From Microvenator marinus (lineage in GTDB: Bacteria; Myxococcota_A; Bradymonadia; Bradymonadales; Bradymonadaceae): 64,000 bases of DNA. The DNA lies in assembly GCF_007993755.1 (NCBI RefSeq), contig NZ_CP042467.1:4550001-4614000 (forward strand), written 5' to 3'. The notes beneath the pieces are model-generated. The model ran no database searches. It was given only the letters and a program-made list of their open reading frames with translations, and had not been told where the DNA came from. The translations under genes were made by a program, and so were the position numbers. Positions 10,934 through 20,712 of the stretch are shown piece after piece (positions within the stretch are counted from its first letter, which is position 1; every line of letters starts with the position of its first letter).

Positions 10934-11006
10934 GGGTGCAGGATACGGGTGGCGAAGGTGAGGGACAAGCGAGGGAATGAAAAGAAATTGATTTAGGACT
11001 TGATTT

Positions 11007-11021
11007 TGATACTCGTTTTCA
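11007..11021. promoter_or_regulatory. Fur-box-like operator 1
   Basis: TGATACT-C-GTTTTCA matches the 7-1-7 Fur consensus TGATAAT-N-ATTATCA at 11 of 14 informative positions. An almost identical copy lies 36 bases downstream, both between the divergent acyltransferase and DUF4856 genes. The genes it precedes (imelysin-like protein, TonB receptor) are of iron-uptake type, which supports the reading. Fur binding itself is inferred. Confidence 0.65.
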
Positions 11022-11041
11022 ATTAGAGAGTGCGCATGAAA

Positions 11042-11070
11042 TTGATACTTGTTTTCAATTTCAATTAAAT
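11042..11070 (+). promoter_or_regulatory. candidate sigma70-type promoter of the iron-uptake operon
   Basis: TTGATA (11042-11047), a 17-base spacer and TTAAAT (11065-11070) place a start site near 11077, about 20 bases before the DUF4856 ATG. The -35 and most of the spacer lie inside Fur-box-like operator 2. The -10 matches TATAAT at 4 of 6 positions. Confidence 0.5.
11043..11057. promoter_or_regulatory. Fur-box-like operator 2
   Basis: TGATACT-T-GTTTTCA scores the same 11 of 14 as operator 1. It lies at the centre of a perfect inverted repeat, GAAATTGA (11038-11045) and TCAATTTC (11055-11062). It covers the -35 and spacer of the promoter proposed here, so a bound repressor would block transcription. 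Confidence 0.7.
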
Positions 11071-11098
11071 GATGCAAACTATCGTGAGGAAGGAAACG

Positions 11099-12649
11099 AT
11101 GAAGAAGGCGAGTTTGATATTGATGTTTGGGGCACTTTTGGTGGCGTGTGGTGATGACAGCGAGTCCACCAACAACGCGAACAACGGTGAGAACAACGTT
11201 TCGAACAATGATTCGAATAACGACACCACCACCAATAACGGGACCACTACGAATAACGGCACTGCGGGAACTAACAACCCGGCTGTGTGTAACCAGCCCG
11301 AGGCGTCGGTCTATATGTTCCTGAACGACGACTGTCAGGACACCGTGGCTTACACCGGTCAGGTGGGGCGGCAAGTTCTGGTCAAGGACCTTTCAAGCTA
11401 TATTTTGAGCCTCGAAGCACAGGTTGATGGCGGAAACTTCTTCCCCGAAGAAGGTGATGTTGTGGGCGCGCTCGACTTCTATTTCCGCTTTGATGGGGAC
11501 GCGAGCGCTGAAGAAATGATCCGCATGAGCGCTGACCCAGAGCTGCTTCAGACCACTTATGGGTTTATGGGAGGCGGCAAGGATTTGGTAAGCAAACTCG
11601 CGGGCAATGACTCGTCGACGGACCACAAAGACTGGAGCACCGAGTTCGAGGGCTGGGAAGACGCAACTCTGGCCCAGTATGGTGGTTCAATCGACACGCC
11701 AGAAGGCATGGTTCAGGCGATCTTCGCGCAGGTCGAAAAGGCCGCGATCGACCGCGCAAACGGCACGTTCGCCCTGGACCCCGTGACGGGTGCGGAGCTG
11801 CCGCTTCACGTGACAGCCGAGGGCTGGGACCTCCAACAGCTGGTCGAGAAGTTCTTGCACTCAAGCCTGAGCTTCAGCCAGGGTGCCGATGACTACCTTG
11901 ACGACGACGTCGAGGGCAAAGGTCTACTCGCCAGCAACGATGGTCCAGACGGAGACAGCCCTTACACGCCGCTCGCCCACCAGTGGGACGAAGGTTTTGG
12001 CTACTTCGGAGCGGCTAGAAACTACATCGATTACACGGACGATGAGATCGCGCAGACGGGTTATCGCGACACCAATGAAGACGGCAAGATCGACCTTTTG
12101 ACCGAGTACAATTTCGGTGCGTCGACTAACGCAGCAAAGCGTGACCGTGGTGCAGCAGCACTCGGTGTGACCGTGGATCTCACGGGTGACGCGTGGAACG
12201 CATTCCGTCAGGGCCGTGCGTTGATTGCAAGCGTTGAGGGTCCTTTGACTGAAGCACAACTCGACGAGTTGCGCGGATATCGCGACCAGGCTGTTCTCAC
12301 ATGGGAGAAAGCTTACATGGCCACCGTGCTCCACTATATCAACGACACGCTCTCGGAAATTTCGAAGTTTGGCTCAGATGATTACAACTTCGTGACCTAT
12401 GCGAAGGTATGGGGAGAGGCCAAAGGGTTTGCGTTTACGCCACTCTACAACCGCAACTCGCCGCTTAGCGAAGAAGACTACGCAGAGCTCCACAGACTTC
12501 TTGGCGACCGCCCCGTATCTCCTGCAGCAGACACTGCAGAGATCGATGCATACCAAGAGGGTTTGAGGACCGCGCGGCAAATTTTGGCAGACACCTACGA
12601 CTTCGATCAGGCTCTCATCGGAGGCGATAACGGAGAGGATGGCTGGTGA
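11099..12649 (+). CDS. DUF4856 lipoprotein of a Fur-box-preceded iron-uptake operon
   Basis: A 516-residue lipoprotein. Signal peptide MKKASLILMFGALLVAC has a clear lipobox; an Asn/Thr-rich linker of about 40 residues follows. The body carries DUF4856 landmarks: VAYTGQVGRQVL near the start, MIRMSADPELL, TWEKAYMATVLHYIND and YAKVWGEAKGFAF. I chose ATG 11099 (GAGGAAGGA just upstream, lipobox at the right distance) over the in-frame ATGs at 11069. DUF4856 genes are often next to imelysin and TonB-receptor genes in Bacteroidota, as here. The domain's function is not established; capture of an iron compound at the outer membrane is inferred from context. The next gene overlaps by four bases (GTGA). 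Confidence 0.88.
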   Translation: MKKASLILMFGALLVACGDDSESTNNANNGENNVSNNDSNNDTTTNNGTTTNNGTAGTNNPAVCNQPEASVYMFLNDDCQDTVAYTGQVGRQVLVKDLSSYILSLEAQVDGGNFFPEEGDVVGALDFYFRFDGDASAEEMIRMSADPELLQTTYGFMGGGKDLVSKLAGNDSSTDHKDWSTEFEGWEDATLAQYGGSIDTPEGMVQAIFAQVEKAAIDRANGTFALDPVTGAELPLHVTAEGWDLQQLVEKFLHSSLSFSQGADDYLDDDVEGKGLLASNDGPDGDSPYTPLAHQWDEGFGYFGAARNYIDYTDDEIAQTGYRDTNEDGKIDLLTEYNFGASTNAAKRDRGAAALGVTVDLTGDAWNAFRQGRALIASVEGPLTEAQLDELRGYRDQAVLTWEKAYMATVLHYINDTLSEISKFGSDDYNFVTYAKVWGEAKGFAFTPLYNRNSPLSEEDYAELHRLLGDRPVSPAADTAEIDAYQEGLRTARQILADTYDFDQALIGGDNGEDGW

Positions 12650-13839
12650 ACATGAAGTATCTGGTTCTATTGGTCTTGGGGCTTTTGGTTGGATGTGAGT
12701 CGAAAACGGATTCAACGCCAGCGCCGGAGCCTAATAATGTGAGCGAAAACAACGGTGACGCGGATCTCGTGGCGTTGAGGCAAGCGGTGGTTGAGAACCA
12801 CGCGGCCTATATCCACGAGACGCTCTCGGAGTTCGAGACGCAGTCAAAAGAGCTACAATCTGCCGTCAACGCCTGGCAGGCGTCCGGAAGTACAAGCGAC
12901 TTGGAGTCCGCAATCGGCGAATTCCACGAAGCGATGGACGTCTGGCAGCGTGCTGAAGTGCTCCAGGTGGGTCCTGCGGGGGTCATGGGAGCTGTAGCTG
13001 GCGGAGAAGACCTACGGGACCAGATATATTCATGGCCGCTTTCAAACGCGTGCCGAGTCGACCAAGAGCTGGTGCGGCTCGGCTACGAGTCTGATTTTGC
13101 CTCACAAGCCGTAAACGTGCGTGGATTGGATGCGCTGGAGTACTTGCTCTTTGCTCAAGACACGTCCAACGCCTGTCCGATCAACTCCATGATCAACACG
13201 GACGGACAGTGGGCGGCACTTAGCGAAGATGAGATTCGAGAGCGCCGTCGGACGTACGCAAAGGCCGCGACAGACCTCGTGGTGACGAGTGCTGAAGATT
13301 TGAGCGCCCGTTGGGCCGAGGGTGGGAGCTTTCGCACCCAGTTCACAGATCCGAGCTCCGGGCAGGTCTACGGTAGTGTGCGAGAAGTGCTCAACGGCGT
13401 CAGCGACGCGATGTTCTACGTGGAGAAAGAGGTCAAGGACATGAAGCTCGCTCCGCCCTTGGGCGTTGTAGGGTGTGCGTCTGAGACGTGTCCTGAGCTC
13501 ATCGAGAGCAAGTACGGGGATCGTTCACTTCGCAACATTCGCCAAAATTTGGTGGCCTTCCAATGGCTCTTCACTGGCGGCGAGGGAAGTGGTTTTGATG
13601 ACCTTCTCGAGGCGGTTGGTGCTGAGGAAACTCGGGATGAGCTACAGAACGATATTCAAATGTCTATCGACCTGGTTGATGCGATCGAAGGTGAGTTTAC
13701 TCCGACCCTTGAGAGCGAGCCTGCAAAGCTTCAAGCAGTCTACGACCAAGTACGAAACGTGAGCACCATCTTAAAAACTGATTTTGTAACCCTTCTCGAT
13801 TTGGATTTGCCAAAGCGCGCCGAAGGCGACAACGACTAA
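12646..13839 (+). CDS. imelysin-family (IrpA-like) lipoprotein
   Basis: A 397-residue lipoprotein with signal sequence MKYLVLLVLGLLVGC. GTG 12646 is preferred because GGAGAGG lies 7 bases before it; ATG 12652 also keeps the lipobox. The body is helical and matches the imelysin/IrpA family, which is iron-regulated in several bacteria: ALRQAVVENHAAYIHETL near the N-terminus, DVWQRAEVLQVGPAG, and RGLDALEYLLF. The signature is normally G-x-H-x-x-E; here it reads G160-L-D162-A-L-E165, so the His that would bind metal is Asp. It is translationally coupled to the DUF4856 gene and followed 10 bases later by the HTTM gene. Confidence 0.85.
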   Translation: MNMKYLVLLVLGLLVGCESKTDSTPAPEPNNVSENNGDADLVALRQAVVENHAAYIHETLSEFETQSKELQSAVNAWQASGSTSDLESAIGEFHEAMDVWQRAEVLQVGPAGVMGAVAGGEDLRDQIYSWPLSNACRVDQELVRLGYESDFASQAVNVRGLDALEYLLFAQDTSNACPINSMINTDGQWAALSEDEIRERRRTYAKAATDLVVTSAEDLSARWAEGGSFRTQFTDPSSGQVYGSVREVLNGVSDAMFYVEKEVKDMKLAPPLGVVGCASETCPELIESKYGDRSLRNIRQNLVAFQWLFTGGEGSGFDDLLEAVGAEETRDELQNDIQMSIDLVDAIEGEFTPTLESEPAKLQAVYDQVRNVSTILKTDFVTLLDLDLPKRAEGDND

Positions 13840-13849
13840 CGGAGCTTTC

Positions 13850-15190
13850 ATGGCCCTTTTTCAGGCCATAAAGAAAGAGGCTTTTCAGCCGCTAGACGCA
13901 GCCAGTCTAGCGGCTTTTCGCGTTTTCTTTGGACTGATGATGTGCGCCGGAGTGATTCGGTTTGCGGCCTATGGTTGGATCGATCGCTTCTTTGTTAAGC
14001 CCGGGTTCTACTTCAAGTTTTGGGGTTTCGAGTGGGTTGAAATCGCAAGTCCAGCGGTGATGTACGCGGTCTTTGCTGGGTTGGCACTAAGCGCGTTCTT
14101 GGTGGCGATAGGCTTTCTCTATCGCATCGCCATCGTGGTTTTCTTTCTGCTCTTTACGTACGTCGAACTCATTGATGTTTCGAACTATCTCAATCATTAC
14201 TATCTGGTTTCGCTGCTCGCGTTCATCTTGATGTTCCTGCCGGCGAATCGAGTTTGGTCCGTCGATGCACGGATTCGGCCGCCGCGCTTTGAGACCGTTC
14301 CTGCGTGGATGCTCTGGTGGCTTAGGTTTCAAGTTGGGTGTGTGTATTTTTACGCGGGGATAGCCAAGTTCAAGGAAGACTGGCTTATTCACGCGCAGCC
14401 GCTCAATCTCTGGCTGACATCCAGGGTTGAGACGCCTTTCATCGGCCCACTTTTGCAGTATTGGGAGACCGCGCTCGTGATGAGTTGGGCCGGATTTTTG
14501 TTCGACACGACCATCGTGTTCTGGCTTCTTTGGCGAAAGACGCGGCCGTGGGCGTATATCGTTCTAATTGTCTTTCATCTTTTAACCAACGTCTTTTTCG
14601 CGATTGGCCTCTTCCCGGTCATCATGATCGTGGCCGCAACGGTCTTTTTTGAACCTAACTGGCCGCGGCGCTTCTTTGGTGGAAGGCCGACCGGCCGCCT
14701 CTTGGAGGCTGAGCGAGGACCCGTATGGGTCTTGCTAATTGCGCTCGTCTTCTGCGTGTTTCAGGGGCTTATGCCCTGGCGGCATTTCGTTTATCCAGGG
14801 TCGGTGCTCTGGAATGAAGAAGGCATGCGTTGGTCCTGGAAAGTGATGTTGCGCGAGAAGAATGGTGACGTGGTCTACCGGGTTAAGTTGGGCGAACGAG
14901 TTCGAGAAGTCAGCCCTCGCTTCTACCTCAGTGCCGATCAGGAACGTGAGATGTCTGGTCAGCCAGACCTAATTTTACAACTTGCACACCACATAGCAGA
15001 TGAGTACACCCACGATGGCCACAGGCCCGAGGTGTATGCCGATGCGTGGGTGTCGTGGAATGGGCGCAAACGTGCGCGGCTTATCGATCCCTCGGTTAAT
15101 TTGGCCGAGGTAAATGATCGTGTTTGGCCGCCCGCCCCTTGGATTTTGCCGGAGCCCGAAACGAGTCCGTTTCGACCAAAAGGAAGATGA
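13850..15190 (+). CDS. HTTM-domain membrane protein, vitamin-K-dependent carboxylase-like
   Basis: A 446-residue protein with about eight or nine membrane helices and a C-terminal soluble part of about 120 residues. The HTTM domain resembles the membrane half of gamma-glutamyl carboxylase: NHYYLVSLLAFILMF followed by PANRVWSVDARI, then VYFYAGIAKFKEDWL. From memory of the human enzyme, His160 and the catalytic base Lys218 fall on His116 and Lys173 here, both kept. The enzyme family uses reduced quinone, O2 and CO2 to carboxylate Glu; whether this protein does so is unknown. Its ATGA overlap with the TonB receptor gene and 10-base gap from the imelysin gene make it part of the iron operon. Confidence 0.88.
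   Translation: MALFQAIKKEAFQPLDAASLAAFRVFFGLMMCAGVIRFAAYGWIDRFFVKPGFYFKFWGFEWVEIASPAVMYAVFAGLALSAFLVAIGFLYRIAIVVFFLLFTYVELIDVSNYLNHYYLVSLLAFILMFLPANRVWSVDARIRPPRFETVPAWMLWWLRFQVGCVYFYAGIAKFKEDWLIHAQPLNLWLTSRVETPFIGPLLQYWETALVMSWAGFLFDTTIVFWLLWRKTRPWAYIVLIVFHLLTNVFFAIGLFPVIMIVAATVFFEPNWPRRFFGGRPTGRLLEAERGPVWVLLIALVFCVFQGLMPWRHFVYPGSVLWNEEGMRWSWKVMLREKNGDVVYRVKLGERVREVSPRFYLSADQEREMSGQPDLILQLAHHIADEYTHDGHRPEVYADAWVSWNGRKRARLIDPSVNLAEVNDRVWPPAPWILPEPETSPFRPKGR
13887..13918 (+). promoter_or_regulatory. perfect 11-bp hairpin inside the start of the HTTM gene
   Basis: AGCCGCTAGAC (13887-13897), loop GCAGCCA, GTCTAGCGGCT (13905-13915), then TTT. The hairpin starts 48 bases after the imelysin stop and 38 bases into the HTTM coding sequence. 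With only four T after the stem it is a weak terminator at best. It could be an attenuator, an mRNA stability or processing element setting the ratio of the upstream lipoproteins to the membrane proteins, or chance. That it is functional is inference. Confidence 0.6.
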
Positions 15191-17376
15191 TGATGAAGCC
15201 TCAAATGAAGTACCGCGTAGCAATAGCGGGGGCTCTTGTGCTCATAAGTTCGTCGGCTACCGCACAGGAAGACGATGAGATTCCTGAGGAACGGGTGGAA
15301 ACCGTTCTAATCACCCAGGAGAAGATCGCGAAGATTGGTGGAGCCGCCCATCGAGTGTCTGAGGAGGAGCTGAAAAGGACGGATTACGCGAATCCTGAGT
15401 CGGTCGTGCAGCAGGTTCCGGGCGTTGTGGTGCGCGGAGAAGATGGATTCGGGCTCAGGCCCAATATCGGGATTCGTGGCGCAAACTCCGACCGGAGCAA
15501 GAAAGTCGCCCTCATGGAAGACGGTGTGCTCTTTGGCCCGGCCCCATATTCAGCGCCCGCGGCCTATTACTTTCCTCAGATTGGCCGAATGGTCGGCGTG
15601 GAGGTCTTCAAAGGGCCGGGCTCGGTGCAATACGGACCCAATACCATGGGCGGTGCGCTGAACCTGATTACGCGGCCCATTCCGTACAAATTCAGCGGCG
15701 GCATCAAAGCCGAAGCAGGTCAGTACTTCACGGGTCGTGGACACGGCTGGCTTGGGGCGAGCACGGATTGGGGCGGCTTTGTGGCCGAGGGTTTCCATAT
15801 GCAATCGGACGGCTTTAAGGAGCTAGATGGCGGCGGAGACACGGGATTTAACCGGCAAGAGTTCATGCTCAAGGGTAGCCTCAATACCGATTATTCGGCG
15901 GAGCATTTCCACCGCCTAAACGCAAAAATCGGGTGGTCTCGTGAGCACTCAAACGAGACCTATCTTGGCCTCTCGGACGACGATTTCGCCAAGAATCCTC
16001 GCCGCCGCTATGCCGCGAGCGCTCTGGACGAGATGGACTGGGTCCGCTCTCAGCTCCAGCTCAGGCATACTTGGGAATGGGGTGACGCTCTCAGCGTAGA
16101 GTCGACGCTCTATCGGCACGATTTGCGCCGCGAGTGGTTCAAGCTCAATCGAATGGGCGAAGGCACCCCGATTTTTGATATTTTGAACGACCCGACAGGC
16201 AGACGACAGGTGCTCTACGAGGTTCTGACGGGCCAAGAGGATTCTCTCGATCCTTCAGAGAATCTCTTTGTGGGAACCAACGACCGTAGATACATCTCGC
16301 AAGGGCTTCAAACCAAGGCGCGCTGGAAGACCGAAGGCGAAGGCTGGGCCAATGTCCTGGAGGCTGGCCTCCGTCTGCACAACGACAGCATTGAGCGCTA
16401 TCACACCGAGCTCGGGCACCGGATGGAGTCCGGGCGTCTCGTGCGAGACGGCGAGTTGCTGCTCAACACGCAAAACGTGGGCGAGACATACGCATTGGCC
16501 ATTCACGTACTGGAGCAGTTCTCATTCTGGAAGTTTGCGTTCACCCCTGGTGCGCGTCTGGAACTCTTCGAGCAGACTTTGACCGATGAGCTGGCAAATA
16601 CAGAAGTGGTGGGCAATCAGGTGGTTTTGGTGCCTGGTATGGGCCTGAGTTTTGAGGTCGTAGACAAGTTGTCTTTGCTTGGCGGGGTGCACAGAGGATT
16701 TTCGCCGACGTCACCAGGGCAGGCGTCTGACGTGAGCTCCGAGACGAGCATCAACTACGAAGCCGGGGTTCGATATAGTGATGCTCGTAAGCGGCGCCTG
16801 ATTGAGGCAGTCGGGTTCTTCAACGATTATTCGAATCTCCTGGGCGAATGTACGTTTTCGGCAGGATGTGATGAGACGCAGCTCGACGATCAGTTCAATG
16901 CGGGAGCGGTGGAAGTCTGGGGCGTCGAGTTCGCGGGGCATTGGGCGTTTGAGGCTGGCGCGTTCACCATTCCGGTCAGGGGAACCTACACTCTGATCCA
17001 GTCGGAGTTTCAAAGTGCGTTCAACTCCGAAAATCCTCAGTTTGGTGAGGTCGAAGTTGGAGACGAGTTGCCCTATACACCTGAGCATCAGGCGTCCTTG
17101 CAGCTCGGATTGGAATGGGAGGAATTGAGTTTCTACGCCACAGGGACGTGGGTTTCCGCGATGCGCGAGAGCGCTGGTCAGTCGGAAGACGACCTCACGA
17201 CAGACGACCAGTTGACGCTCGATTTGAATGCCGGCTGGCGATTCGAAGAAGGGTTCTCAATAACAGCCCGCGCCGAGAACATCACGAACGACACAGGCAT
17301 CGCTTCGAGGCGCCCGTTTGGCGCTCGACCTCATCGCCCCATGTTAATCATGTTGGGAGCAGGCTACGAATTTTAG
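15187..17376 (+). CDS. TonB-dependent outer-membrane receptor (FecA-like)
   Basis: A 729-residue receptor. A signal peptide ending SSSATAQ is followed by a plug domain with VVQQVPGVVVRGEDG, RPNIGIRGANSDRSKKV, MEDGVLFGPAPYSAP and VEVFKGPGSVQYGPNTMGG. The beta-barrel ends in HRPMLIMLGAGYEF with the terminal Phe of outer-membrane proteins. It is similar in layout to FecA-type ferric-chelate receptors. It begins with ATGATGATG; the first ATG overlaps the HTTM stop by four bases (ATGA), while AAGGA is best spaced for the third (15193). As the last gene of the Fur-box-preceded operon it should pass an iron compound to the periplasm. No TonB/ExbB/ExbD or inner-membrane transporter lies nearby. Confidence 0.94.
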   Translation: MMMKPQMKYRVAIAGALVLISSSATAQEDDEIPEERVETVLITQEKIAKIGGAAHRVSEEELKRTDYANPESVVQQVPGVVVRGEDGFGLRPNIGIRGANSDRSKKVALMEDGVLFGPAPYSAPAAYYFPQIGRMVGVEVFKGPGSVQYGPNTMGGALNLITRPIPYKFSGGIKAEAGQYFTGRGHGWLGASTDWGGFVAEGFHMQSDGFKELDGGGDTGFNRQEFMLKGSLNTDYSAEHFHRLNAKIGWSREHSNETYLGLSDDDFAKNPRRRYAASALDEMDWVRSQLQLRHTWEWGDALSVESTLYRHDLRREWFKLNRMGEGTPIFDILNDPTGRRQVLYEVLTGQEDSLDPSENLFVGTNDRRYISQGLQTKARWKTEGEGWANVLEAGLRLHNDSIERYHTELGHRMESGRLVRDGELLLNTQNVGETYALAIHVLEQFSFWKFAFTPGARLELFEQTLTDELANTEVVGNQVVLVPGMGLSFEVVDKLSLLGGVHRGFSPTSPGQASDVSSETSINYEAGVRYSDARKRRLIEAVGFFNDYSNLLGECTFSAGCDETQLDDQFNAGAVEVWGVEFAGHWAFEAGAFTIPVRGTYTLIQSEFQSAFNSENPQFGEVEVGDELPYTPEHQASLQLGLEWEELSFYATGTWVSAMRESAGQSEDDLTTDDQLTLDLNAGWRFEEGFSITARAENITNDTGIASRRPFGARPHRPMLIMLGAGYEF

Positions 17377-17718: not shown

Positions 17719-19980
17719 ATGCAATCAATACCGGTTATCGAGACCACGATGGGATGTGCAAATAGACAAATTGGTGTGGTTTTTGGGCTATTGCTTTTGG
17801 TTTTCGGTACCGGTTTTTCCGACTGGTACGCGGACAAAGCTCTGGTCTCAGAGACGCCTCCAGAGGCCTTTGCCGCTGGGGCTGAAGACAAGGGAGATCC
17901 TCGCGTTGAAGCACATCTGGTCATCGATCACGCGAGTGTGGATTCGACCGGTGAATTTCGTGCAGGCGTGTTCTTCGAAATCGACCCCGAATGGCATATT
18001 TACTGGCGAAACTCTGGTGAATCAGGACTTTCTACCGAAGTGACGTTCGATGCAGAGGGTGTGGAGTTCTCGGCGTTGACTTGGCCGGCACCAGAGCCCT
18101 ACCTCGATAAAGCCGGAATTGTGGCCACTTTCGGGTACTCGGACACCGTTCTTCTCTGGTCAGACGCGCGCGTAGCGTCAGCAAAGGGTGACATTGAGGT
18201 CAACGCCTCCATCGACTACCTCGCCTGCAAGGTCGAATGCATTCCCGGAAGTGCAACGCTCAAGCGAACGGTCAAAGTTGGTGCCACGGAAAGAGGACTT
18301 GATTGGGAACTTTTTGAGGCCGCATCCTCCGAGGTCGCGCAGTCTCCTGGCTCTCAAAGTATTGAAGTTGCACTGAATGTTGCAGGCGGAACGGAGACCG
18401 TGCTCGGAAGTCTTTCACTTGTTTGTAGCGGGTGTTCGCTGGAAGTCATGGCGCCCGTTGAGCGTTTTGCGTTTATGCCAGACGAGGGGCGGAACGTTCT
18501 TTGGAAAACCCAACAAATCAAGCGAAGTGGGCCCCGAAGTACCATCGAAATGTCTGGCACGCCCAATCCTGATGGATTCGAAGGGAGCTGCGATCTGGGC
18601 GGGGTGGTTTGGGTTCGAAAAGACGGAAAGCCTTTGCCGCTGGCGATTGAGCAACCTCTTGATTGTGCCTCGATTCCTGAACTTCAGGCCGCTGGAGCAA
18701 CTGAGCCAAGCCCGGATGTGAAAGCTGAGTTGAGCACGGATGGCAAAGCGCCTGCCAACGTCCCCAACCTAAACCTTTTCTACGTGTTGTTGCTTGCCTT
18801 CCTTGGCGGAATGATCCTCAACCTGATGCCGTGCGTGTTTCCGGTCTTGGCGATCAAAGTCTTCTCGTTTGTGAAGCTTGCCCATGAGACCAAATCCACT
18901 GTTCTCGCCCATTCGCTGGCGTACACTGTGGGCGTGGTGGGCTCCATGTTGGCGCTTGCCAGCGTGGTTGTGGGCCTAAAGGTGGCAGGGACCGAGGTGG
19001 GTTGGGGCTTCCAATTCCAAGAACCGCTCTTCATCGTAGCCTTGGCCGCGGTGTTGGTGCTCTTTGCCCTGAATCTCTTCGGAGTTTTTGAGGTGAGTCT
19101 GGGGATTCAGGCAAGGAAATCCTCCGAGCACACCTTGAGGCAAAGTGTGGGTGAGGGCGTGCTCGCTGTGGTTCTGGCCACGCCGTGTTCGGCTCCGTTT
19201 TTAGGGACTGCCGTGGGCTTTGCCCTATCCGCCTCTTATACCACTATCTTCCTGATCTTTGGTGTGCTCGGACTTGGGCTCGCCTTCCCATTTGTGGTTT
19301 TGACCTTGATGCCGGGAGCAGCGCGGGTGCTGCCAAAACCGGGCAATTGGATGGTGGTCTTTAAGCAGGTCTTGGGTTTTGCCCTACTAGGCACATGTAT
19401 TTGGTTGATCTGGGTGCTAGGGCAGAGTGTGGGCGTCAACGGCGTCACGCAACTCCTGATTTTCCTGACTGTCTTGGGCCTGGGAGCCTGGGGCTTTGGG
19501 CAGGTTCAATTCAAGTCTGGCGCAGTCAAGTGGGGTGTTTCGTTGGGGCTTGCGGCGTTAGTCGTAGCGACTGGCTTCGTTACGCTGAGCTTTGACTCGA
19601 GCGTTGAAACCCAAAGTGCAACCTACGATTCCTCGTGGGAGAAGTGGTCACACGAACGAGTGGCCGAGGAGACGCAAAACGGCCGTGTGGTTTTCGTGGA
19701 TTTCACGGCGGATTGGTGCATCACCTGCAAAGTCAACGAAGGTGCAGTTCTGGCTCAGCCAAAAGTGGAAGCCGCGTTTGAAAAGCATCAGGTGGTCAAA
19801 CTCAAAGGGGATTGGACGAAGAAGGACGAGGAAATCCGCCAGGTACTTGAAAGTTTTGGCAAAGGTGGAGTTCCTCTGTATCTGGTCTACGGACCCGGCA
19901 TCGAAGAGGTAAAGGTATTGCCCGAAGTATTGTCTCAAGAACTCGTTGTGAGTGCCCTCGATGAGGCTGCGGGTAAGTAA
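17719..19980 (+). CDS. dsbD: DsbD-type thiol:disulfide interchange protein
   Basis: A 753-residue protein carrying electrons from cytoplasmic thioredoxin to the periplasm. It has all three parts. The N-terminal periplasmic domain (about residues 60-340) has Cys pair CKVEC. The eight-helix membrane domain (about 350-620) has its two redox Cys in NLMPCVFPVL and ATPCSAPFLGTA. The C-terminal thioredoxin domain has FTADWCITCKVNE (CxxC near residue 665). The complete relay suggests it is functional. ATG 17719 has GGGGAA 6 bases upstream. A redoxin lipoprotein gene follows 33 bases later, a natural electron acceptor. Confidence 0.95.
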   Translation: MQSIPVIETTMGCANRQIGVVFGLLLLVFGTGFSDWYADKALVSETPPEAFAAGAEDKGDPRVEAHLVIDHASVDSTGEFRAGVFFEIDPEWHIYWRNSGESGLSTEVTFDAEGVEFSALTWPAPEPYLDKAGIVATFGYSDTVLLWSDARVASAKGDIEVNASIDYLACKVECIPGSATLKRTVKVGATERGLDWELFEAASSEVAQSPGSQSIEVALNVAGGTETVLGSLSLVCSGCSLEVMAPVERFAFMPDEGRNVLWKTQQIKRSGPRSTIEMSGTPNPDGFEGSCDLGGVVWVRKDGKPLPLAIEQPLDCASIPELQAAGATEPSPDVKAELSTDGKAPANVPNLNLFYVLLLAFLGGMILNLMPCVFPVLAIKVFSFVKLAHETKSTVLAHSLAYTVGVVGSMLALASVVVGLKVAGTEVGWGFQFQEPLFIVALAAVLVLFALNLFGVFEVSLGIQARKSSEHTLRQSVGEGVLAVVLATPCSAPFLGTAVGFALSASYTTIFLIFGVLGLGLAFPFVVLTLMPGAARVLPKPGNWMVVFKQVLGFALLGTCIWLIWVLGQSVGVNGVTQLLIFLTVLGLGAWGFGQVQFKSGAVKWGVSLGLAALVVATGFVTLSFDSSVETQSATYDSSWEKWSHERVAEETQNGRVVFVDFTADWCITCKVNEGAVLAQPKVEAAFEKHQVVKLKGDWTKKDEEIRQVLESFGKGGVPLYLVYGPGIEEVKVLPEVLSQELVVSALDEAAGK

Positions 19981-20013: not shown

Positions 20014-20712
20014 ATGAAAGGGACCAAAATTCTAATCTTGATGGCGGCGATGGGCCTCTGGGCGTGTGATAAAGAGACCGAAGCAGTGGCTGAACCAGCC
20101 GAAGCGGTGCAAGAGGTTGCTCAGGCGGCTGAAGAAAAGGTGGAAGAAGCTGGTGCAGCCGTGGCTGATGTGGCCAAAGAAGAGGCTATGACCGTGGCCA
20201 TGGTGGGCAAACCTGCTCCTGAATTTGAATTGAAGGACGAGTCGGGCAAGACTCATAAGCTGAGCGATTACAAAGGGAAAATTGTGGTGCTCGAGTGGAC
20301 CAACCCCGATTGCCCTTATGTGGTGCGCCATTACGAGGCGAAGACCATGCAAAAGACGTGGGAGAAGTTTGGACCAGAAAAGGTTGTCTGGCTGGCTGTC
20401 GACTCGTCGAATTTCGTCAAGCCTGAGAGCTCGACCGAGTGGAAAGGCAAAGAGGGCTTTGGCTACCCAGTGCTTCAAGATCCGTCAGGAACCGTGGGCA
20501 AGCTTTATGAGGCCAAGACTACACCTCATATGTACATCGTGGATGCCGAAGGCGTGCTTCGTTACAACGGTGCGATCGACGACGATCCGCGCGGAAAGTC
20601 TGAGGCGCCTACCAATCACGTAGAGCAGGCGTTGGGTGCGCTCCTCGAAGGAAAGGACGTGCCACAGACCAACACCAAGCCTTACGGCTGCTCTGTGAAG
20701 TACTCGTCTTAG
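20014..20712 (+). CDS. redoxin / AhpC-TSA-fold lipoprotein
   Basis: A 232-residue lipoprotein (MKGTKILILMAAMGLWAC). An Ala/Glu-rich linker of about 45 residues follows, then a thioredoxin-like domain: GKPAPEFELKDESGKTHKL, VVLEWTNPDCPYVVRHY, PHMYIVDAEGVLRY and a C-terminal TKPYGCSVKY. The single DCPY Cys lies where peroxiredoxins and TlpA-like proteins have the active Cys, and the second conserved Cys near the C-terminus may be resolving. ACAAAGGAGC stands before its ATG. Placed after dsbD, it is probably kept reduced by it and may act as a periplasmic peroxidase or reductase; the substrate is unknown. Confidence 0.88.
   Translation: MKGTKILILMAAMGLWACDKETEAVAEPAEAVQEVAQAAEEKVEEAGAAVADVAKEEAMTVAMVGKPAPEFELKDESGKTHKLSDYKGKIVVLEWTNPDCPYVVRHYEAKTMQKTWEKFGPEKVVWLAVDSSNFVKPESSTEWKGKEGFGYPVLQDPSGTVGKLYEAKTTPHMYIVDAEGVLRYNGAIDDDPRGKSEAPTNHVEQALGALLEGKDVPQTNTKPYGCSVKYSS

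Follow-up and report, generated by a model that had tools for sequence, protein, structure and literature searches.

Imelysins with the histidine-less motif GxxxxE have been named the IPPA family, and the available text of PMC3143127 places them in Fur-regulated operons (PA4370-PA4373, VC1264-VC1266) together with a second imelysin and a di-haem peroxidase (DUF1111/DHOR). We analysed a 64,000-nucleotide stretch of the Microvenator marinus genome (contig NZ_CP042467.1, positions 4,550,001 to 4,614,000; hereafter the window), in which an imelysin of this type lies in a different setting. Four genes on the forward strand at 11102-17376 encode, in order, a DUF4856 lipoprotein, an imelysin lipoprotein, an HTTM protein homologous to vitamin-K-dependent gamma-carboxylase (VKGC) and a TonB-dependent receptor. 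The window operon shares with the IPPA-type operons the His-less imelysin, its C-terminal tail and predicted Fur control; it carries DUF4856, VKGC and a TonB receptor instead of the second imelysin, the peroxidase and the DUF1513 gene found in the gammaproteobacterial loci examined. We read it as a Fur-repressed, imelysin-type iron-acquisition operon with a probably active VKGC that would act on an exported partner, likeliest the imelysin, and we hold this reading with moderate confidence.

Other systems share different parts of the operon. In IME1-DHOR-IME2-VKGC operons of Myxococcota, Chloroflexota and a Persicobacter plasmid, VKGC directly follows a tailed imelysin as in the window, whereas as a rule no TonB receptor or DUF4856 lies beside it; these operons link the window operon to the PA4370-type operon. 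In Riemerella anatipestifer, a receptor, VKGC, imelysin and hypothetical protein bear successive locus tags, RAYM_09779-09794; this set differs in phylum and in Fur-box type, and the available text of PMC5609570 gives it as a table entry, not as a described system. From its position only, we infer that RAYM_09794 is the DUF4856 protein. EfeUOB/M likewise employs an imelysin domain in iron uptake, and the window imelysin matches EfeM (7q1g) and EfeO (7wgu) in fold. The window operon differs in lacking a cupredoxin domain, and neither the EfeU permease nor EfeB was found among the four operon genes and four neighbouring proteins scanned.

The VKGC homologue

The third gene (13850-15190, forward strand) encodes a 446-residue protein in which an HTTM transmembrane domain (PF05090, E 2.3e-84, matched over the whole model) is followed by a VKGC lumenal domain (PF22777, E 2.5e-44). 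The first-pass annotation had called this product membrane enzyme-like; that description stands, the catalytic residues being intact, and the lumenal domain had been missed. Human GGCX, the sole PDB relative found (9wfn, 9l20 and others), aligns over both domains (E 3.6e-42), and the window protein is by sequence a complete two-domain VKGC homologue. The two proteins share K218, N159/H160, D222 and nearly the whole quinol pocket. They differ in length (758 residues in chain 13ib_A) and in that the window protein has no known propeptide or Gla-domain substrate, its partner being an imelysin lipoprotein.

Residue roles in catalysis, substrate holding and the quinol pocket (F286, F294, F299, V210, W223, A214, G259, also M401) were taken from the available description of human GGCX (PMC12589487). 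By alignment, K173 of the window protein (codon 14366-14368, forward strand) is the equivalent of the catalytic base K218, and N115 and H116 are those of N159 and H160. Across 103 imelysin-adjacent operon VKGCs, the equivalents of K218, N159, H160, F286, F299, W223, A214 and D222 are identical in every sequence, those of F294, V210 and G259 in 102, 101 and 99, respectively. Several other human positions are replaced: M401 of the pocket is Val in all 103, N158 is Leu in 102, and K217, which serves coupling, not catalysis, in the human enzyme (PMC12589487), is Ala in 102. The Y395 equivalent (residue 326) varies (M in 46, Y in 36, F in 17). R37 and R311 are invariant and specific to the bacterial proteins, and R327 is nearly so (100/103). 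The host genome encodes a MenB-type enzyme (418 bits against a curated cut-off of 342.7) and yielded no futalosine-type menaquinone gene. With these catalytic and quinol residues and a host MenB, menaquinol chemistry is probable for the VKGC homologue and carboxylation plausible, and we consider it fairly likely to be an active quinol-dependent enzyme.

The neighbourhood survey covered 36 stretches around VKGC-lumenal matches in the host and its relatives, and, from named genomes, the 80 best of 554 VKGC relatives, a choice in which close kin are over-represented. All frames were searched with iterated profiles of the four window proteins; open reading frames (ORFs) were longest-frame calls, and absent DUF4856 or receptor matches can be profile misses. 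The loci fall in Bacteroidota (39), Myxococcota (30), Chloroflexota (4), Balneolota (2), Pseudomonadota (1) and Bdellovibrionota (1), with no phylum recorded for 40. Of the 110 loci that offer 1.5 kb or more of upstream sequence, 101 have an imelysin adjoining VKGC. Where at least 3 kb was available on each side (90 loci), 54 carry DUF4856, imelysin and TonB receptor. A further 16 have imelysin and receptor without a DUF4856 match, and the remainder have two imelysins without receptor (10), one imelysin alone (3), DUF4856 and imelysin (1), receptor alone (1) or none of these (5). The gene between the imelysins of the two-imelysin type is a di-haem oxidoreductase (PF06537) in both of the two cases scanned. 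The gene set recurs not just in Bacteroidota, as the first-pass annotation had it, but in Myxococcota and a few other phyla too, and the constant partner of VKGC is imelysin rather than DUF4856. VKGC is present in 36 of 148 Bacteroidota genomes and imelysin in 37; 32 have both, 4 VKGC only and 5 imelysin only (Fisher p 7.5e-23, without correction for kinship). Literature searches, with most subscription journals outside their scope, found no paper that pairs imelysin with gamma-glutamyl carboxylase or names 'DUF4856'.

VKGC homologues in other contexts were also seen. A second, more distant one in the host genome, outside the window (G000:C1:3223081, locus L059), has no imelysin and sits directly after a PPDK-type ATP-binding protein. 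At L288-L290 (Bacteroidota G188, G203 and G219), a different VKGC has a conserved three-gene context with no imelysin nearby; we take the flanking genes to encode FAD synthetase and seryl-tRNA synthetase. On Paracoccus albus plasmid p1 (L238), a VKGC-like HTTM protein is divergent from a DUF393 protein, and no imelysin is nearby.

Predicted iron control

Two Fur-like 17-mers, TTGATACTCGTTTTCAA at 11006-11022 and TTGATACTTGTTTTCAA at 11042-11058, 36 bp downstream (both forward strand), precede the operon and differ by one base, as the first-pass annotation had noticed. In each, 11 of 14 positions match the 7-1-7 Fur palindrome (site 1 as compared with TGATAATNATTATCA), and they are the only matches to TTGATANTNGTTTTCAA with fewer than two mismatches in the 5.85-Mb genome. 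The Fur-box match in the 441-bp stretch upstream of the operon reaches p = 0.035 against dinucleotide shuffles. The longer E. coli 19-mer consensus has no match in the window, even at three mismatches. One site had been thought to overlap a promoter, a detail we could not reproduce, the promoter scan giving no sigma-70-like promoter there. The score of the predicted sites is modest by itself, and what convinces is their duplication together with the comparative data.

In the comparison, the best consensus match upstream of an operon had to beat 95% of dinucleotide shuffles, using either TGATAATNATTATCA or a consensus for Bacteroidota patterned on the R. anatipestifer box given in the available text of PMC5609570. 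Boxes of the TGATAATNATTATCA type precede the operon in 41 of 62 non-Bacteroidota loci versus 1 of 62 control stretches, and Bacteroidota-type boxes in 31 of 37 Bacteroidota/Balneolota loci versus 2 of 37 controls. The two patterns are alike: the Bacteroidota consensus passes in 20 of the 62 other loci, and TGATAATNATTATCA in just 1 of the 37. A predicted Fur box is thus conserved in the promoter region of the window operon and its orthologues, which marks them as putatively Fur-regulated.

Iron responses of similar gene sets have been published. RAYM_09779-09794 of R. anatipestifer are 2.1 to 3.1 times more highly expressed when iron is low; the wild-type ratios without and with iron in Table 4 of PMC5609570 are 2.11 for the receptor, 2.64 for VKGC, 3.07 for imelysin and 2.41 for the hypothetical protein. 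In Leptospira, imelysins flanking a haem-domain peroxidase are induced under iron limitation, according to the available text of PMC7567364, an arrangement that appears to resemble the two-imelysin operon type. The earlier proposal of iron and Fur control is thus upheld by the operon's own sites, by the boxes in its relatives and by the iron response of the orthologous set, and the window operon is very likely an iron operon. A divergent acyltransferase gene (PF01553; 9929-10936, reverse strand) shares the intergenic region; its start lies about 70 bp from site 1, so the sites could also serve this gene.

The imelysin and the remaining operon proteins

The imelysin-like (M75) lipoprotein (forward strand, from a GTG at 12646 or an ATG at 12652 to 13839; PF09375, E 5e-35) is of the His-less GxxxxE (IPPA) type, with GLDALE where others have GxHxxE. 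Its structure model (mean pLDDT 87.3; weak in the lipoprotein linker and in the last six residues, 390-395, pLDDT < 50) has the two-bundle fold and matches ICMP, IPPA, IrpA, EfeM and EfeO in Foldseek (7xrx, E 3.5e-9; 3pf0, E 4.1e-8; TM 0.65-0.68 of query). The protein ends in G-D-N-D (codons and stop 13825-13839, forward strand), an instance of a conserved D-x-D tail that is predicted to be disordered. Few elements are as well conserved as this tail in a family whose identity between phyla is only about 20%, and the tail is new as far as the literature searched goes.

Within the operons surveyed, the tail and VKGC coincide closely. In the host genome, GDND stands before a real stop codon in this imelysin gene only. 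Across 117 sequences (116 loci and the window), 101 of 4,485 ORFs end in D[GNS]D, all of them imelysins, and all but one, which lies a few genes away, adjoin VKGC. Untailed imelysin paralogues occur in the same operons. An independent Bacteroidota sample agrees on the coincidence, the five imelysins of the five imelysin-only genomes among the 148 all being untailed. In the window's class (31 genomes), a tailed imelysin occurs in 16 of 16 genomes with VKGC and in none of 15 without it. Solo VKGC loci have no tailed neighbours, apart from a single unrelated ORF of antisense type that a looser pattern picked up.

The tail also follows the imelysin type. Once sequences sharing the same last 150 residues had been collapsed into one, the GxHxxE histidine was absent in 122 of 122 tailed and present in 35 of 35 untailed imelysins. 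L099 and L120, with 3 and 1 extra residues after the tail, were counted as tailed; an adjacent imelysin with a frameshift-like end (L094) and one cut by the contig end (L229) were not counted among the untailed proteins. The imelysin residue Arg43 is conserved in 83% of VKGC-linked proteins, in 0 of 12 tailed non-adjacent ones and in 0 of 35 untailed ones. The host's other imelysin (G000:C1:2179342; L160, L292) keeps GxHxxE and is untailed, and the gene after it resembles those for di-haem oxidoreductases.

Gammaproteobacteria carry the tail in other surroundings. The imelysin of PDB 3pf0 (Psychrobacter) ends in TDGD. Imelysin matches occur in 25 of 187 gammaproteobacterial genomes, and 15 of 30 loci have a tailed, His-less imelysin, with VKGC alongside in just 3; one further protein (L258) ends in DGD yet retains GxHxxE. 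In the 12 gammaproteobacterial regions selected for inspection of neighbours, the gene after the tailed imelysin is DUF1513-like in 7 (an identity established by Pfam for two proteins) and VKGC in 2; VKGC thus sits in the place held by DUF1513 in gammaproteobacterial operons. One region (G402) has two tailed imelysins and then other genes. At L276 (G402:C26) and L244, an imelysin ending in GDGD is followed by a fatty-acid-hydroxylase-type membrane enzyme where VKGC would be. In two Bacteroidota genomes, a tailed imelysin follows DHOR with no VKGC beside it, VKGC being elsewhere in both genomes. Since tailed imelysins occur without adjacent VKGC in both groups, the tail belongs to the His-less imelysin type, and we dropped the idea that it is a VKGC-specific substrate. 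Residue 326 of VKGC follows the tail class (M in 45 of 49 with DND, Y or F in 50 of 51 with DGD or DSD). In the first set, which did not include those Gammaproteobacteria, the tail changes once on the tree and its class (DND or DGD) once on the VKGC tree; the match is therefore one event and not replicated covariation.

The genes of the operon are as tightly packed as first described, every overlap or gap being of 10 bases or fewer: a 4-base overlap (a 2-base gap if the imelysin starts at its ATG), a 10-base gap and a 4-base overlap. The DUF4856 lipoprotein (11102-12649, forward strand, extendable to 11069; PF16148, E 2.1e-7) has the lipobox LVAC, an Asn/Thr-rich linker and an all-helical domain. 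Its model (mean pLDDT 87.9) has no Foldseek match at E <= 0.001 and no clear PDB fold; in VIA the best Z is 7.8, to helical bundles, with imelysins and EfeM at 3.6-4.1, and comparison with the imelysin profile gives 64.5% probability with a poor alignment. The receptor (15187-17376, forward strand; plug PF07715, barrel PF00593) starts within the 4-base overlap with the VKGC stop. Its best NCBIfam subfamily is TonB-siderophor (TIGR01783), at 113 bits under a cut-off of 223.5; it passes no NCBIfam cut-off and is classed only as a TonB-dependent receptor. Downstream of the operon lie genes for a DsbD-type thiol:disulfide protein (17719-19980) and a ResA/TlpA-like lipoprotein (20014-20712), probably a separate thiol-redox pair.

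Possible roles of VKGC in the operon

In the mechanism we favour, iron starvation would lead to production of the outer-membrane TonB receptor and of the IPPA-type imelysin and DUF4856 lipoproteins, and the two exported lipoproteins would, with the receptor, bind or hand over the iron source. The VKGC homologue would act in the inner membrane as a menaquinol- and oxygen-dependent carboxylase with a periplasmic active site, modifying the neighbouring imelysin and thereby creating or tuning a metal-binding site. Activity, substrate, modified residue and transported compound are all proposed here from sequence and genomic context, and the imelysin is our best, if tentative, guess at the substrate. 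The boldest form of this proposal, which we regard as unlikely, is menaquinol-dependent protein carboxylation in the bacterial iron-starvation response, with VKGC carboxylating the IPPA-type imelysin at the D-x-D tail or at another acidic residue. Carboxylation of the tail would yield beta-carboxy-aspartate, a hard iron ligand, and the carboxylated residue would take the place of the metal site that disappeared together with the GxHxxE histidine.

Several observations weigh against these proposals. The analysis identified neither a Gla-type Glu-rich domain nor a propeptide-like motif. VKOR would be expected if a quinone epoxide must be recycled, and it is not enriched in genomes that have VKGC (6 of 36 genomes with VKGC, 27 of 112 without). 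In 12 of the 15 tailed gammaproteobacterial loci VKGC is not adjacent, and 2 of the 12 inspected regions (L274, L275) have DUF4856-imelysin-receptor operons without it; VKGC is therefore not essential to the imelysin or to the operon, and the tail version of the carboxylation is weakened. The imelysin may nonetheless be a VKGC substrate, through its tail or another part, the tail's existence being no proof of it. The R. anatipestifer fur mutant keeps its iron response (ratios without and with iron of 2.70-3.07), and with iron the mutant exceeds the wild type merely 1.36- to 1.93-fold in the available data of PMC5609570; Fur therefore accounts for part of the response there.

VKGC might instead keep its quinol chemistry only, in menaquinol oxygenation or in a strong-base step on a small molecule such as an iron ligand, a lipid or a quinone. 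Conservation is highest at the quinol pocket and K218, N158 is replaced, Y395 varies, no Gla domain was found, and HTTM proteins serve other pathways, for example linaridin peptide biosynthesis (in the available text of PMC9927463). The lumenal substrate-binding domain is nevertheless retained, and N159/H160, the residues that keep the substrate carboxylate in place in human GGCX (PMC12589487), are invariant; we find this reading rather doubtful. It is quite improbable that VKGC is a non-catalytic membrane chaperone or scaffold for the imelysin, all catalytic positions being kept in 103 divergent sequences, which would be unexpected of a scaffold, even if its place in the DUF1513 slot and the operons that do without it would suit such a role. 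That the operon imports something besides iron (haem, another metal or an organic compound) and is just co-regulated by Fur also seems improbable to us. The receptor's failure to reach any NCBIfam cut-off would fit, as would the imelysins tested in the available text of PMC3143127, which bound neither haem nor ferric ion; against it stand the Fur boxes across phyla, the iron response in Riemerella and the iron-transport role of the EfeM/EfeO relatives.

In summary, the window operon is of an ordinary kind, a Fur-regulated imelysin and TonB-receptor iron-acquisition system, with an unusual and very widely conserved part in VKGC. The survey reveals modular exchange around one imelysin type, VKGC standing in for DUF1513, and TonB receptor and DUF4856 for DHOR and a second imelysin. 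To our knowledge, bacterial GGCX homologues have been recognized for years without an agreed job. Our analysis places a large group of bacterial VKGCs whose catalytic residues are intact in one biological context, that of iron starvation with an imelysin lipoprotein as partner. Carboxylation of the imelysin, if true, would give a bacterial VKGC its first physiological role, as far as we know.

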